IMG/VR virus record: IMGVR_UViG_3300034092_001651
Location: 1-37,440 of that record
Direction: 5' to 3' (one strand)
DNA length: 37,440 nucleotides
From: a virus
The position numbers and the translations under genes are program-made. Below the pieces are notes generated by a model. That model was not told the DNA's origin and ran no database searches. It saw nothing but the letters and a program-made list of their open reading frames with translations. This document shows, piece by piece, positions 8,083-37,440 of the stretch (its first letter is position 1; each line of letters begins with the position of its first letter).

Positions 8083-9239
8083 ACATATATCTGTGGAGTT
8101 TTGCGAATAGCGTTGAAGGCATAGCCCAACGCGTCAATAAAGTCATCATGCTTGTCTTGCGGAGTGCCCGTAAACGAAAGCAGCTCCTCGGTAAAGTCCG
8201 GATTGATATGTGGGACATGATAAACAAGCCCTTGTTCATATCGTGCCTCGACTGGCTGAAAGCGAATAACCTTGTCTCGATCCGCTCTCACACCTACGAC
8301 ATTCATCTTAGTATTTCTTTTCAGCTCTTGAACCATCCAAGCTTGAGCTTGATTTGATTCGACTGCAACTACTCTTGCATTCCATCTTTGCTCGGCTGAC
8401 ATGATCTTACGGCCTATCTCTTGGAACTGCGCTCTGAAATGATCGGCTTCAACTACAACAACCTCACCATCTTTTGTCGTGCCTATTACCACGATTGCAG
8501 TATAATCTGCAGTTTCCTTTTGCGAGATTGCAAGGTCAACTCCGATGTAATACGCCGTGCATTCTTGGCCGTTTGTCGTGCGTAGCCATTCGCGTTTAAT
8601 CTTAGCCGCTGATCTATCGACATATTCAGCAAGAAACTCTTGCGCGAAAACCAAAGAGGGTAGCAGTTCCTTTTGCCTATCAACTTCGCTTATTTTGATT
8701 TGCCCGCCGTCGTATGTCGAGTAGTGGAATGATTGCCAGTCTGACATAGTCTCGGAGAGCTGATCTAATTGCCAAAAGTGATTTTTACCTTTCGGCGTTG
8801 AAAAGAAATACGCATCTCCTTCATAATCTGCTAGCATCGGAGAAAGCACAAAGTTCCAATCGTCTTCTGCATTTGGACAATGTGCCCACTCGTCGCAAAT
8901 CACTCTATGAAACTTATTACCTCGAAGTCCGTCAGCTCGGTAAATACCTTGCAAAACCAATGTACTACGACCTAGTTTAATCTGGCCTTGTTTGTAAGTT
9001 GCGCCAAGCGGTGCAAAGAAATTTTGTGCCTCGGTTTCTCGTCCTGAGAGCTCGGTGTATGATGGCGCGGTGTAGAGAACATACGACCCATCAACTTCAA
9101 GCATTTTCTCAAGGGCCAAAGCAAAAGCCAAATAAGACTTACCAAAGCGACGACCGCACCGAACAACATTAAAGCGCTTCCTATTCCGAAGTATCTCAAG
9201 CTGTTTATCATGCGGTTTTATCCGTATCACTGTATCCAT
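8079..9239 (-). CDS. Terminase large subunit
   Basis: The frame extends to a TTG at 9257, but ATG 9239 is the likely start, giving 386 residues. ATPase motifs are clear: Walker A RCGRRFGKS (K34), Walker B HRVICDEWAH (D116, E117), and a coupling-type FFSTPKGKN (about 146). The RNase-H-like nuclease part has VDLAISQ (D235), VAVESNQAQA (E294) and DKHDDFIDALGYA (D365, D366, D369). The protein packages DNA into the prohead through the portal. At 386 residues it is short for the family but has both domains. It overlaps the small-subunit gene by 32 bases. Confidence 0.93.
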   Translation of the reverse strand: MDTVIRIKPHDKQLEILRNRKRFNVVRCGRRFGKSYLAFALALEKMLEVDGSYVLYTAPSYTELSGRETEAQNFFAPLGATYKQGQIKLGRSTLVLQGIYRADGLRGNKFHRVICDEWAHCPNAEDDWNFVLSPMLADYEGDAYFFSTPKGKNHFWQLDQLSETMSDWQSFHYSTYDGGQIKISEVDRQKELLPSLVFAQEFLAEYVDRSAAKIKREWLRTTNGQECTAYYIGVDLAISQKETADYTAIVVIGTTKDGEVVVVEADHFRAQFQEIGRKIMSAEQRWNARVVAVESNQAQAWMVQELKRNTKMNVVGVRADRDKVIRFQPVEARYEQGLVYHVPHINPDFTEELLSFTGTPQDKHDDFIDALGYAFNAIRKTPQIYV

Positions 9240-14443: not shown

Positions 14444-15001
14444 TTAATAAATCACAAAGTCCGTAATCCTGAAGTATGAGGTAGGGTTAATTACTCGCGT
14501 CCGTGCCCAAACGCCATCACCGTCATGCTGAGAGCCTCGAAGCCCCGAGCTTGTATTCCCTTCTACAGTCGTGCCCTTTTTCCCTTGCCATTTATCTACT
14601 ATCCCTGCATGACCAAAGGGAGTAGTTCCCCTTCGCCATACAATGATCGTGCCCGGTGGTAGTGTCATGTTTTTGGTAATGACTTCCGTAGCCTTTATGG
14701 TTTTATTCCGAGTAGCAAAGTGCCTAGCAAGCCCTGATCCTGTAAACGGCAAGCCTTTGACCCCTGCAGAGTCTAAGCAAAAGTTCACGAAACTTGCACA
14801 CCATTGAGCGCCCCTCGGGCTCTTGGTCGAAGCTTGAAAGCGGCGAACCCAGTAGCCCCCGTTATTGCCCTCTTCTTTCGTACCGATAAAGCCCTTGGCA
14901 ATTAGCAGAACCTTAGGACTGACTGAAGCAGAGAGCGGCTGTAATGATGTTAGCAGACAAGTAAAGAGCGTAAGCGATAGGATTTTGTGCGATAATTTCA
15001 C
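14444..15001 (-). CDS. Exported CHAP-domain endolysin
   Basis: The protein has 185 residues. The start is GTG 15001, with an AAGGAGGT ribosome site eight bases upstream, embedded in the preceding gene. Residues 1-25 are a cleavable signal peptide (KILSLTLFTCLLTSL, then ASVS). The CHAP (NlpC/P60-like) catalytic set is visible: QWCASFVNFC (C68), FGHAGIV (H131) and VEGNT (E147/N149). It should cleave peptide bonds in peptidoglycan after export by the Sec system, which suits a Gram-negative host. It overlaps the holin candidate by 89 bases, so the two are translationally coupled. Confidence 0.88.
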   Translation of the reverse strand: MKLSHKILSLTLFTCLLTSLQPLSASVSPKVLLIAKGFIGTKEEGNNGGYWVRRFQASTKSPRGAQWCASFVNFCLDSAGVKGLPFTGSGLARHFATRNKTIKATEVITKNMTLPPGTIIVWRRGTTPFGHAGIVDKWQGKKGTTVEGNTSSGLRGSQHDGDGVWARTRVINPTSYFRITDFVIY

Positions 15002-15190: not shown

Positions 15191-15826
15191 CTAAATAGAA
15201 ACTAAAATACGTCTAAGCTGTGGATTAAATTGCTTAGACTCTAGAACTGTATATTCCGTTGTTGTTATTCCGCTCTTGGATTCTGTATCCAAAAGCGAAG
15301 CCTGAAACTTAGTCCAGTTTTCCTCTTGCCATTTGTCATAGTTCTCACGGTCATGGTCATCACTGTAGAACCAGCCCTCCCTTCTTGCAAAGCCTGTCAA
15401 TACGCATCTCCAATATAGATCGTCATCGTCAACGGCCCAACCCCAGTATTCATTGGAGTAGCCGTTTATTTTGCGGTATGACTCTTTGTCAAATAGCGTA
15501 ACTCCACCAAAGTAAGCACGGTAAGGCATATCCCATTCGTATTGTTCTACATACCTTGCCAAATGAGTCGGCGTAAAGACTGGTGAATAGTCCGCGTCTT
15601 TGGCGTACATATCCACGTCATGAAAGCAAAAGTAATCAGCATGCTGAGACTCTATGAATCCGATGTTTTTCATCATACCGGTATTGAATAGCTTGCCCTC
15701 TTCTTGCTCTACAATGGTAATGCCAAACTCTAAGCCTTGAGCCTCAAGCGTCTTGAATAAGTGAGGCACTTGCTTGCGAATGTGAGCCTCGCGATTCCGG
15801 TAGGGAATAATTACTTCAAGTCTCAT
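15191..15826 (-). CDS. GT7-family (beta-1,4-galactosyltransferase-like) glycosyltransferase
   Basis: The protein has 211 residues and matches the B4GalT fold through most of its length: VIIPYRNREAHI (5-16), FGITIVEQEEGKLFNTGMM (34-52), FCFHDVDM (DVD at 70-72, metal site), YFGGVTLFDKESYRKINGYS (105-124) and EYWGWAVDDDDLYWR (126-140). In animal enzymes the last motif is WGWGxEDDD; here Ala-Val replaces Gly-Glu, with four Asp. It should transfer a sugar (Gal, GalNAc or similar) from a UDP-sugar. There is no signal or membrane anchor, so it acts in the cytoplasm. The acceptor is unknown. It lies between SSB-related genes and the holin. Confidence 0.88.
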   Translation of the reverse strand: MRLEVIIPYRNREAHIRKQVPHLFKTLEAQGLEFGITIVEQEEGKLFNTGMMKNIGFIESQHADYFCFHDVDMYAKDADYSPVFTPTHLARYVEQYEWDMPYRAYFGGVTLFDKESYRKINGYSNEYWGWAVDDDDLYWRCVLTGFARREGWFYSDDHDRENYDKWQEENWTKFQASLLDTESKSGITTTEYTVLESKQFNPQLRRILVSI

Positions 15827-16083: not shown

Positions 16084-16390
16084 CGGGAACCTCTACAGGC
16101 GCGGGCTTGTTTTCATAAATCTTAGCGAGTTTGATACTTGTGATGTATCCAATCCCGCCCTCTTTCTTTTGGTATTCCTTACCGCCGACAAAGCCCTCTG
16201 CAGTTACTTGCATTCCTACCGGATACCCTCGCATGAGTTCGACCTTGTCATTAATCGCCTCGAATTTGATAAACTCGGGATACTTACTTGTCGAATCCTT
16301 TACCACGATCTCCGCTTTGGTGAATTTATCGGAATACTTTACAGGCGCTCCGACATACACTACCTCGCCGCTAATCTCAATCTTTGCCAT
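16067..16390 (-). CDS. Single-stranded DNA-binding protein (OB fold, DUF3127-like)
   Basis: The protein has 107 residues. The strand pattern MAKIEISGEVVYVG, AEIVVKDSTSKYPEFIKFEA and GMQVTAEGFVGGKEYQ follows the DUF3127-type OB fold common in Bacteroidota. The C-terminus is a linker ending DAIPF, close to the DDIPF tip by which bacterial SSBs recruit PriA, RecQ, exonuclease I and others. It likely coats replication intermediates and recruits host enzymes. Partner genes here are a primase, helicase and Sak4-like annealing ATPase. Confidence 0.82.
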   Translation of the reverse strand: MAKIEISGEVVYVGAPVKYSDKFTKAEIVVKDSTSKYPEFIKFEAINDKVELMRGYPVGMQVTAEGFVGGKEYQKKEGGIGYITSIKLAKIYENKPAPVEVPDAIPF

Positions 16391-16958
16391 TCTCTTCGCT
16401 CCTAGAAATGTATAACCATGACTTGCCGATTATTTGCAAGTCCGTAAAATATGTATCTACTGCAGTCTTTACGCCTTCATGCGTCGTATAATCGTGACCG
16501 CCGATCATACCGCCCGGCTTGAGCTTCGGTAGCCATAACTCAATATCTACGCAAACCGAGTCGTAATCATGTGAGCCGTCGATAAAGATAAAGTCTACGC
16601 TCTGCTTTTTGAACTTCTTTGAAGCTTCTCCGCTTGGCATATCCAAAGTCTTGACTATCGACTTAACAGGCTCGATGTTAGTCAGGTACTGACCGCGAAG
16701 CTCACCGCTTTGAGTCGCATAGTCGTAGTGAGCCGATACGGGATTGCGGTGCTCTTCAGAGCCTAAGAAGTGATCTACTGCATAGTAAGTGATAGCCTTC
16801 CCACTATTCATGATCTCAACGCCCGCAAACGCGGCGCTCTTGCCCTTCCAGGCTCCGATCTCTACAAACTTAGCGCCGTCTTCGGCTTTGTCAATAGCGA
16901 GTTTGATTATCTCTTCGTAGTCAAACCAGCCGTGGATGTTATGGTAGTAATGATTCAT
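16377..16958 (-). CDS. Class I SAM-dependent methyltransferase
   Basis: The protein has 193 residues. Motif I is FVEIGAWKGKS (about 32-42). The later part reads DFIFIDGSHDYDSVCVDIEL (motif II-like) and KLKPGGMIGGHDYTTHEGVK, the standard pattern of Methyltransf_24-type enzymes. Such phage proteins often act on sugars or peptides rather than DNA; no DPPY is present. It precedes the SSB gene with a 14-base overlap and lies close to the GT7 gene, so a role in glycan modification is possible but unproven. Confidence 0.82.
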   Translation of the reverse strand: MNHYYHNIHGWFDYEEIIKLAIDKAEDGAKFVEIGAWKGKSAAFAGVEIMNSGKAITYYAVDHFLGSEEHRNPVSAHYDYATQSGELRGQYLTNIEPVKSIVKTLDMPSGEASKKFKKQSVDFIFIDGSHDYDSVCVDIELWLPKLKPGGMIGGHDYTTHEGVKTAVDTYFTDLQIIGKSWLYISRSEENGKD

Positions 16959-28033: not shown

Positions 28034-28060
28034 GCCTTCGCTCCTTGAAGTGTGAATAGT

Positions 28061-28077
28061 GGGGGCTTAAAGCCCCC
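28061..28077. terminator. Short strong hairpin between two early genes
   Basis: A 7-bp GC-rich stem (28061-28067 with 28071-28077) with a three-base loop. On the plus strand it is followed by GTTTGTTGATT; on the minus strand it has no T tract. In the minus-strand transcript it may be an attenuator or an RNA-stability element behind the first early gene rather than a full stop. Confidence 0.45.
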
Positions 28078-28086
28078 GTTTGTTGA

Positions 28087-28392: not shown

Positions 28393-28436
28393 GTCCGTAC
28401 TCCGTTGTGTTATTGTGTGTCGTTGATTACGGTGCG

Positions 28437-28465
28437 AACTTACGAAACAAAACAATACATGTCAA
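28437..28465 (-). promoter_or_regulatory. Main early promoter
   Basis: On the minus strand TTGACA (28465-28460), 17 bases, then TAAGTT (28442-28437), continuing as TAAGTTCG. This reads as a sigma-70-like promoter with a weak -10. It also fits the Bacteroidota pattern: TTG, 20 bases, then TAAGTTCG against TAnnTTTG with one mismatch. A long A/T run lies upstream. It would start transcription near 28430, ahead of the ATG at 28392, and read the whole early block. Confidence 0.7.
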
Positions 28466-28479
28466 GTCTTTTTTTTTAT

Positions 28480-28692
28480 TTATCTAATTATTTTTATCTT
28501 TTGAGGTAGGTCAAGCGAGCCTAAGTAGTTGAATTCTCTAGGAGTTATGGCAAAAATAAAAATTTTCGAAATTGTAGGAATTTCGGCAAGATTTTGCACG
28601 GACTGCAGAGAGGGAAGGGCGGCGCGGTAAGATTCGCCGTTTTTTTTATGTATTTCTATTTGAATCATTTTAGTATATTCGTATGTCATCAT
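28480..28692 (-). CDS. Unknown 70-residue protein
   Basis: ATG 28692, or 28668 (MIQIEIHKKNGESYRAALPS). No clear ribosome site at either. The sequence looks like a genuine alpha-beta protein (strand, 'G.sYRAALPSLQSVQNLAEIP', strand KIFIFAITP). It lies between the late terminators and the early promoter. A 27-codon plus-strand ORF (28547-28630) with its own terminator overlaps it antisense, so the coding strand here is not beyond doubt. Confidence 0.55.
   Translation of the reverse strand: MMTYEYTKMIQIEIHKKNGESYRAALPSLQSVQNLAEIPTISKIFIFAITPREFNYLGSLDLPQKIKIIR
28620..28647 (+). terminator. Plus-strand terminator-like hairpin
   Basis: A 5-bp GC stem (28620-28624 with 28635-28639) and 10-base loop, followed on the plus strand by eight T. 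It lies inside the minus-strand 70-residue gene. The stem is short, so the evidence is modest. Confidence 0.45.
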
Positions 28693-28738
28693 GCTGAATT
28701 TTTGCAGGTGGCCAAATACTCAAAGCATTGGCGTGCGA

Positions 28739-28767
28739 AAGGCTACCCGGGGAAGGTAGCCTTTTTT
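28739..28767 (+). terminator. Plus-strand intrinsic terminator
   Basis: A 9-bp stem (28739-28747 with 28755-28763), loop of seven, followed by a T run to 28767 and ATTT. The T tract is on the plus strand; on the minus strand only TTTCG follows. No plus-strand gene precedes it. Confidence 0.7.
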
Positions 28768-28784
28768 ATTTCGAATTATTTCCG

Positions 28785-28876
28785 TATGTTTGAATCAGCG
28801 GCCTATCATAGCCGTATCTTGTAACTCCCCCCAGAGCTGAAGCCCTGAATGTGTATGACTTTCAGGGCTTTTTTTT
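28785..28876 (+). ncRNA. Candidate plus-strand small RNA (promoter box plus terminator)
   Basis: TATGTTTG at 28785-28792 fits the TAnnTTTG box. About 10 bases later a transcript would begin and hold a small hairpin with CGGC/GCCG arms (about 28798-28814). It would end at the 9-bp terminator stem 28841-28849 / 28861-28869 with seven T, about 80 nt in all. The -33 box is weak. There is no evidence beyond these signals. Confidence 0.3.
28841..28876 (+). terminator. Plus-strand intrinsic terminator at the end of the late block
   Basis: A 9-bp stem (28841-28849 with 28861-28869), 11-base loop, then T 28870-28876. The T tract is on the plus strand. The stop codon of the minus-strand gene ending at 28862 lies within its stem. 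In the minus direction it is preceded by A but not followed by T, so it would terminate late transcripts only weakly. Confidence 0.7.
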
Positions 28877-29059
28877 ATAGTACTCTTCTTTCATGACTTT
28901 CAGCATGAATTTACAAGTAGCTATCTCGCCTTGCGCCATAATGAGTTGATCGCATTCTTTTACGGCCAAAGATACGGCCTTATTTATTGGCAATTTCTTG
29001 CGAATAGCATAGGCTCTGATAGCTCTTTGCTCTGCTGGATCTGTTATGCGAATTACCAT
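28862..29059 (-). CDS. Small helical protein, last late gene
   Basis: ATG 29059 overlaps the stop of the preceding gene (TGATG); 65 residues. The start MVIRITDPAEQRAIRAYAIR then KKLPINKAVSLAVKEC suggests a ribbon-helix-helix-like or helical DNA-binding fold, followed by a basic tail. Being last in the late block and RHH-like, it may be a late regulator. Weak assignment. Confidence 0.55.
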   Translation of the reverse strand: MVIRITDPAEQRAIRAYAIRKKLPINKAVSLAVKECDQLIMAQGEIATCKFMLKVMKEEYYKKKP

Positions 29060-29553
29060 CAATCGCGTCTTAATACGATTTGACCTTTAATAGTTGCACC
29101 TGATGCGAAAGTCTCTCCGGATGCTTTGAGCTCGGGCACCATGTATAGCGTCTTGCTTGTCGATTGACAATTGTACACTAGATTAGGGTTAATTTGGGCC
29201 ATAGAAACGCCTGTGCCTCCGTTTATCCAATTTGCGGCTACTATATCGGTATAACCGACAAGCACATCAAATTGAGCACTTGTGAAGGCTTGCGGGCTAT
29301 TCCGCGCGGCGGGTGTAATAGCAGATCCGAAAAACCATAGTCGAATAGCAGGGGCTTGCAAAGTTCCCGAGCTTGTTTCTTTGAGAATGATACGCTCAAT
29401 CACTCCCGAGAATCCCAAAAAGCGAGCCGCGTCGATTGAGATCGCTCCTGAAGTAAGTATATCATTTTCAGCATATGCAGCGGTGTCGAGCGTTCCGAAG
29501 TCGATTGCTCTTAATACTCGGTCTTGTCCTGTTTTTCCTGTATAAAATTCCAT
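29059..29553 (-). CDS. Tail-tip accessory protein A (paralog pair)
   Basis: The protein has 164 residues and is rich in strands. It shares with the next protein upstream in transcription (29555-30091) the start '[GY]..GQDR', the block RLWFFGSAITPAARNSPQAF and TSAQFDVLVGYTDI, and the end '..I.l.RD'. This indicates a gene duplication. The function is likely structural, at the tail tip, given its position behind the tail-tip genes. Confidence 0.65.
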   Translation of the reverse strand: MEFYTGKTGQDRVLRAIDFGTLDTAAYAENDILTSGAISIDAARFLGFSGVIERIILKETSSGTLQAPAIRLWFFGSAITPAARNSPQAFTSAQFDVLVGYTDIVAANWINGGTGVSMAQINPNLVYNCQSTSKTLYMVPELKASGETFASGATIKGQIVLRRD

Positions 29554-37295: not shown

Positions 37296-37440
37296 GAAAA
37301 AACTTGAGTGAGTCCAAGATTCCGTCTAAGTCTTGGTTTTGCCAAAAGTCGCTTGAAGGCTCGGACTGAATACCACTCAAAAGCTCTGTATTTTGCACTT
37401 TGCTTTCATCGATTACGGCCTTTACAAACTCAAAGATTTT
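37261..37440 (-). CDS. Tail assembly chaperone, first frame, 3' part
   Basis: The frame is open from the window end (37440) to TGA at 37261-37263 and is the continuation of the gene that starts at 452. Shared residues around EFVKAVIDESKVQN are identical to the left-end copy. The last eight bases differ from the left copy and change the encoded residues from T-I-C-E to K-I-F-E, which may be end-of-contig error or a population variant. The frame ends ..SLKFFRETVCRRVRIM. Confidence 0.8.
   Translation of the reverse strand, partial: KIFEFVKAVIDESKVQNTELLSGIQSEPSSDFWQNQDLDGILDSLKFFRETVCRRVRIM
37297..37302 (-). promoter_or_regulatory. Candidate ribosomal frameshift site (T6 run)
   Basis: Read on the minus strand, the first chaperone frame passes AAG TTT TTT CGT. 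Six T in two Phe codons allow slippage of +1 (or -2) into the second frame, giving ..SLKFF(F)VKRYAEES. The second frame is open upstream only to a TAG about 40 bases earlier, so the shift must occur within that short window, which contains the T6 run. Confidence 0.65.
37307..37432. repeat. Terminal direct repeat (right copy)
   Basis: Identical to bases 1-126. It is the overlap by which the circular or circularly permuted genome was linearised. After it, two substitutions occur within eight bases, at the extreme end of the window. Confidence 0.9.

Follow-up and report, generated by a model that had tools for sequence, protein, structure and literature searches.

Two predicted small RNA genes read against the protein genes at the late-early junction of a phage family

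Introduction

Why would a phage genome whose recognisable genes all lie on one strand carry a cluster of terminator-like hairpins on the other? The question is raised by positions 28480-28880 of the virus record IMGVR_UViG_3300034092_001651, the whole 37.4 kb of which (37,440 nt) was analysed and is called the window here. A sequence-only reading of this DNA had listed three plus-strand hairpins, each followed by a run of T, and had offered two interpretations, namely that they end antisense transcripts or that they define small plus-strand RNAs. Inspection finds the hairpins and their T runs where that reading placed them. Its description of the surroundings is also borne out: all annotated functions fall on the minus strand (major head protein, protease, portal, terminase, tape-measure protein, primase, helicase and a Sak4-type protein), and the cluster sits with the early genes on its left and, on its right, the late block of structural genes, which is read towards the left.

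Positions 1-126 recur at 37307-37432, with 8 non-matching bases after the second copy, a terminal repeat of 126 bases that would be expected of a circularly complete or terminally redundant genome. The host probably belongs to the Bacteroidota, a phylum with unusual promoters and translation start signals. As an indirect clue to the host, the primase of the window is closest to primases of Flavobacteriia phages. Elsewhere in the window, proteins with glycosyltransferase family 7 and class 24 methyltransferase domains are encoded at 15191-15826 and 16377-16958, and a CHAP-domain lysin (14444-15001) lies near them.

Results

A strict scan of both strands of the whole window finds four sites at which a strong stem is followed by at least five T, all on the plus strand (15966, 28616, 28738 and 28840), and no such site on the minus strand. 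Two window sites score at least 24, compared with one site in total when the whole window was dinucleotide-shuffled 40 times; at a score of at least 14, these shuffles yield a mean of 1.3 sites each. A looser hairpin scan is at chance level (17 sites, 16.6 expected), and it is therefore the strong sites alone that carry the claim. The features of the junction are collected in Table 1.

Table 1. Positions of the genes, hairpins, predicted RNAs and promoter elements around the junction in the window
Feature	Position	Strand	Remarks
Early gene-strand promoter, TTGACA-N17-TAAGTTCG	28435..28465	-	relatives have TTTGCAT-N17-TAAGTTYG
62-aa conserved protein gene	28480..28668	-	IFAITPREF motif; alternative start 28692
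Hairpin 1	28616..28647	+	inside minus-strand coding sequence 28480-28668; T8 encodes Lys-Lys
RNA1 putative -7 box, TATATTCG	28674..28681	+	TATATTTG in most near relatives
RNA1, predicted sRNA of ~80 nt	28688..28767	+	just before RNA2; predicted 5' end
Hairpin 2, predicted RNA1 terminator	28738..28767	+	10-bp stem, loop CGGGGAA, T6
RNA2 predicted -7 promoter box, TATGTTTG	28785..28792	+	relatives have TATATTGC, TAGGTTGC, TATATTTG
RNA2, predicted sRNA of ~80 nt	~28796..28876	+	predicted 5' end; 3' end at T run
RNA2 hairpin H1	28798..28815	+	stem GCGGC/GCCGU, 8-nt loop CUAUCAUA
RNA2 C tract, CUCCCCCC	28825..28832	+	inside small hairpin loop in several relatives
Hairpin 3, predicted RNA2 terminator	28839..28876	+	T8; overlaps stop codon of 28862-29059
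65-aa gene	28862..29059	-	last of the late block; stop codon overlapped by hairpin 3
164-aa conserved gene (MEFYTGK...)	29059..29553	-	constant neighbour of RNA2

The stretch 28480-28880 is not free of genes on the minus strand, since the conserved 62-aa gene occupies 28480-28668. Because this gene covers hairpin 1, we assign hairpin 1 to coding sequence and reject it as a terminator. It consists of codons of the gene (KKNGESYRAA) and is not conserved; several relatives lack it and have KISGQSY at those codons. The 62-aa protein is 48-99% identical among relatives, and L119 and L122 encode more distant homologs that have IFAITPR in common with it. This uncharacterised IFAITPR family of 62-65 aa adjoins the RNA module, with homologs at L119:4919-5113 and L108:891-1076.

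A fourth, weaker hairpin had been proposed at 28061. Its stem is present (28058-28080, GGGGGC/GCCCCC) and is kept in four near phages with varying loops (TTTA, TTGA, TTCA, ACG). It was nonetheless rejected as a terminator, having no real T tail and being intercistronic on the gene strand, and it is not part of the RNA module. On the gene strand this stem lies between two early genes, directly before a GGAG start site.

Hairpins 2 and 3 behave differently from hairpin 1. Conservation of the stems by compensatory changes, which the sequence-only reading had named as a check, is found for these two and fails for hairpin 1, and it is for these two that a small plus-strand RNA, rather than the end of an antisense transcript, is strongly supported. 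We propose that two sRNA genes stand in tandem here, opposite to all protein genes, in the interval where the late operon has ended and the early genes have yet to start, and that each would have its own Bacteroidota-type box and its own intrinsic terminator, hairpin 2 for RNA1 and hairpin 3 for RNA2. From comparison of sequences, we hold it highly probable that RNA1 and RNA2 exist as plus-strand RNA genes, and very likely that they are real regulatory RNAs, the structure of which is kept while the sequence changes.

RNA2 is the better conserved of the two, with a 5' hairpin carrying an 8-nt loop, an exposed C5-6 tract and a terminator. An RNA of about 80 nt starting from a TAnnTTTG box at 28785 had already been suggested. 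The box is confirmed there, and it is conserved jointly with the 5' hairpin, the C tract and the terminator, with compensatory changes and plus-specific G-U pairs, in agreement with the predicted RNA. Across relatives, the box TAnnTT[TG][GC] is followed by the hairpin GGC-CYATCATA-GCC and then by CUCCCCCC, and L052 has TT/AA in place of GG/CC. The 8-nt loop of H1 has the consensus YNAYMAUR, and its stem pairs keep pairing through two-sided changes (GC to UA). A tract of C5-C8 is present in all RNA2 members. The stem of hairpin 3, GCCCTGA...TCAGGGC in the window, becomes GACCCTAGCAGA...TCTGCTAGGGT in L026 and ACCCGCTTAT...ATAAGCGGGT in L030, with two-sided changes at 7 of the 7 pairs counted.

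When 27 distinct RNA2 sequences are aligned, 324 of 324 pair cells pair and 10 of 12 pairs show two-sided changes, counts that are inflated towards this structure because the covariance-model alignment is fitted to it. None of 500 shuffles is as good, a significance that is overstated since the sequences are related, and slid controls pair at 26-58%. H1 is visible by eye, and the contrast between strands is independent of the alignment fit. Among the 324 cells of the 27 sequences there are 30 G-U wobbles and no A-C, which places the RNA on the plus strand, since a minus-strand reading would give 30 A-C mismatches. The same asymmetry bears on the idea that the locus is a DNA signal, such as an origin or a packaging or recombination site, with cruciforms that resemble RNA hairpins. 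A single copy per genome in a fixed place would suit such a signal, but wobbles that are all G-U on the plus strand, T runs that stand 3' of the stems on a single strand, and upstream promoter boxes would not, and we regard this explanation as very improbable.

The window's RNA2 folds 4 standard deviations below shuffled sequences (z -4.0). In members such as L052 and L131 it contains no ATG, so that RNA2 is not a small coding gene, and its overlap with the gene at 28862-29059 is confined to ~15 nt at the 3' end of that gene. RNA2 thus appears, from its sequence, to have the features by which phage sRNAs are broadly recognised: its own box and terminator, no conserved reading frame and a conserved plus-strand structure.

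Relatives were gathered through the Sak4-like protein, a structural protein and the 164-aa neighbour protein. A first covariance model, built from 18 near relatives, was run on distant loci held out of its building. It found matches in the same syntenic place, opposite to the genes, in L108 (66 bits), L088 (62), L057/L132 (58 for L132), L117 (48), L121 (45), L131 (39), L119 and L120 (39), L122 (34) and L032/L130 (21 for L130). At distant loci the 62-aa gene is often absent and the next gene is different, so that RNA2 is kept more steadily than the genes beside it. The model R2 gives one strong RNA2 match per record in 19 records, the sequences of which were included in its building except L130, which scores 31 bits with it; most of the weak additional matches of R2 come from the hairpin 3 palindrome on the other strand. 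When all viral contigs were scanned for the RNA2 pattern, with no protein anchor, matches came from this phage family only, and the predicted RNA2 family would span about a dozen lineages of relatives. Cellular genomes yielded neither a match to the RNA2 pattern nor a relative of the 164-aa neighbour protein. RNA2 is likewise absent from the cultured phages P12024S and phi46:1, which have the closest primases. Contigs recruited through the terminase also lack it, but they are partial and carry no weight here. A weak match in G023 was rejected, being a different sequence.

RNA1 has two dissimilar types. In the window's group a core of ~50 nt is nearly invariant, even in L026 with its diverged flanks, and its 5' part differs from the other type. 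In L030, L052, L058, L108 and L088, RNA1 has TTTG-N20-TATTTTTG or TTTG-N20-TATTTTGC, the TTTG standing exactly 20 nt upstream, together with a terminator that has a G-rich loop and a 5' hairpin (TGYAAYC/GRTTRCA, two compensatory changes) drawn from these five sequences only. The stem of hairpin 2, GGCTACC...GGTAGCC, is GGCTAAC...GTTAGCC in L026 and GGCGATC...GGTCGCC in L030; replaced or compensated in these and in L052, L108 and L119, it retains its T tail and G-rich loop. In L130 the G-rich terminator stands at the opposite flank of RNA2, which, like the existence of two dissimilar types, counts against RNA1 as proposed. At 4480-5150 of L110, a locus with no RNA2 match, there are apparently two tandem opposite-strand units, the first with the box TATATTTG and a GGGA terminator loop, the second with the box TATATTGC and a UCUUCCCC terminator loop, and these are possibly a very diverged version of the RNA module.

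The TAnnTT box is found in 30 of 30 aligned RNA2 members. TTG stands 18-22 nt upstream of it in 18 of 31 members, which cover most of the distant lineages; this -33 element is missing in 13 of the 31, the window among them, and that of RNA1 is not recognisable in the window's own group. Bacteroidota promoters have the consensus TAnnTTTG, with TTTG near -33 (PMC7366714). The promoter layout of RNA1 and RNA2 fits both this consensus and the layout of early promoters in the same phages, from which we infer transcription by the host polymerase. Both RNAs would be transcribed during infection. In L030, L108 and L088, the divergent 62-aa gene has its box (CAAAGATA on the plus strand) two bases away from that of RNA1, an arrangement shared by L052 and L058 (GCAAGTTA TG TATTTTGC). 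The promoters of RNA1 and the 62-aa gene therefore overlap in these loci.

The junction differs between phages with and without RNA2. Two strong opposite-strand terminators follow the 164-aa gene in all 15 RNA2-bearing loci examined (the window has hairpin 1 as a third opposite-strand site), and these loci have no gene-strand terminator except for bidirectional hairpins in L026 and L117. The window's own junction has no intrinsic terminator on the gene (minus) strand. In 13 of 13 sister phages that lack RNA2, there is one terminator on the gene strand and none on the opposite strand. L109 and L110, which have no RNA2 match, do have an opposite-strand terminator, with their genes arranged differently. 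The RNA module and an ordinary late terminator are alternatives.

This comparison touches a rival explanation, in which the hairpins are only terminators, or bidirectional terminators, that end the late operon and keep convergent or antisense transcription out of the early region, the RNA product being irrelevant. The location at the late/early junction, the gene-strand terminator of the sister phages at the same junction and the bidirectional hairpins of L026 and L117 all suit it. It does not account, however, for H1 with its conserved loop, the C tract and the promoter box, all of which persist in relatives with a replaced terminator sequence, and T tails are confined to the plus side in most lineages. 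We consider it improbable that termination is the whole role of the locus.

Discussion

If RNA1 and RNA2 are regulatory RNAs, it remains to consider how they might act. The C tract of RNA2 would be a natural pairing site, and the GGGG of RNA1 or G-rich sites in mRNAs would be possible partners. We tentatively rank first, at somewhat less than even chances, a role of RNA2 as a trans-acting antisense RNA that uses its C tract on G-rich phage or host mRNAs, with RNA1 as its partner or sponge. Our target search, over 30 gene clusters in 9 genomes, placed the terminase start first. The signal is weak (1/100 in a shuffled-linker control) and its G run also encodes a conserved Trp-Gly; we do not claim it as a target.

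That no phage target clearly stands out would also be expected if RNA2 worked by binding a protein, with an RNA-binding protein of phage or host recognising the H1 loop and C tract for titration or assembly. The stem of H1 changes but its loop stays conserved, as is the case in hairpins that proteins recognise. We have no candidate protein, though, and antisense RNAs commonly use a plain C tract as their seed; protein binding is placed second to antisense pairing, as a less probable but sizeable alternative.

The two RNAs may instead mainly control each other, with GGGG pairing to the C tract in a sponge or antitoxin-like manner. GGGG occurs in RNA1 in 12 of 12 lineages, where 6.2 would be expected, and the complementarity sum is 72 compared with 63.5, 5 of 500 shuffles being as good. 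Cognate pairs nevertheless bind no better than swapped ones (p 0.93; second test p 0.21), co-evolution of RNA1 with RNA2 is accordingly not supported, and we think mutual control unlikely to be the main function. It is tempting to speculate, at longer odds still, on a two-component RNA switch in which the C-tract RNA silences G-rich phage (or host) mRNAs and the G-tract RNA sponges it. The overlapping promoters of RNA1 and the small protein, of which only one could fire, might then set early against late timing in a phylum without Shine-Dalgarno control.

It is very likely that RNA1 and RNA2 are phage sRNAs not described before. Rfam 15 has no family at the gathering threshold in the window or in ten relatives, and sub-threshold matches are at chance level only. 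The literature searched describes phage sRNAs such as OOP, sar, PreS and VpdS but none that resembles RNA2, and the main text of a review of the field does not mention Bacteroid- (PMC12197685). Lambda OOP and P22 sar are, like RNA2, small terminated phage RNAs on the strand opposite to their neighbours at a regulatory junction (PMC12197685). They are complementary to an overlying mRNA (cII, ant), whereas RNA2 lies in a gap, overlaps only the last bases of a late gene and lacks their extensive overlap with a regulated mRNA. None of its conserved parts overlaps an mRNA, and for that reason RNA2 is not of the OOP/sar type. PreS of lambda and VpdS of VP882 are short phage RNAs that act on phage or host mRNAs, as proposed for RNA2 (PMC12197685), but they are Hfq-dependent and belong to proteobacterial phages, and no Rfam relation was found for RNA2.

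Among bacterial sRNAs, Bacteroides intergenic RNAs of the GibS type have, as RNA2 does, a TAnnTTTG box and an intrinsic terminator (PMC7366714), but are encoded by the host. Bacteroidota mRNAs are without classical Shine-Dalgarno sites (PMC7366714). The C-rich-motif sRNAs of Gram-positive bacteria, of the staphylococcal IsrR type, have an exposed C-rich stretch as their likely seed. RNA2 has such a stretch too, which is a resemblance only; with no Shine-Dalgarno sites in Bacteroidota, the usual target of C-rich sRNAs is largely absent there, though GGAG precedes the start codon in several early genes of the window. A structured RNA family present in about a dozen lineages, with clean presence or absence relative to sister phages, would offer a comparative system for phage sRNA function in Bacteroidota.

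Two homopolymer-rich stretches were seen in other contigs. At ~1537-1706 of L152 (record G010), the gene strand has eight runs of five or more G, of which seven are closely spaced (~10-15 bases). L114 ends in a dense array of C6-C9 runs (8395-8486), which is either a biological repeat or an assembly artefact.
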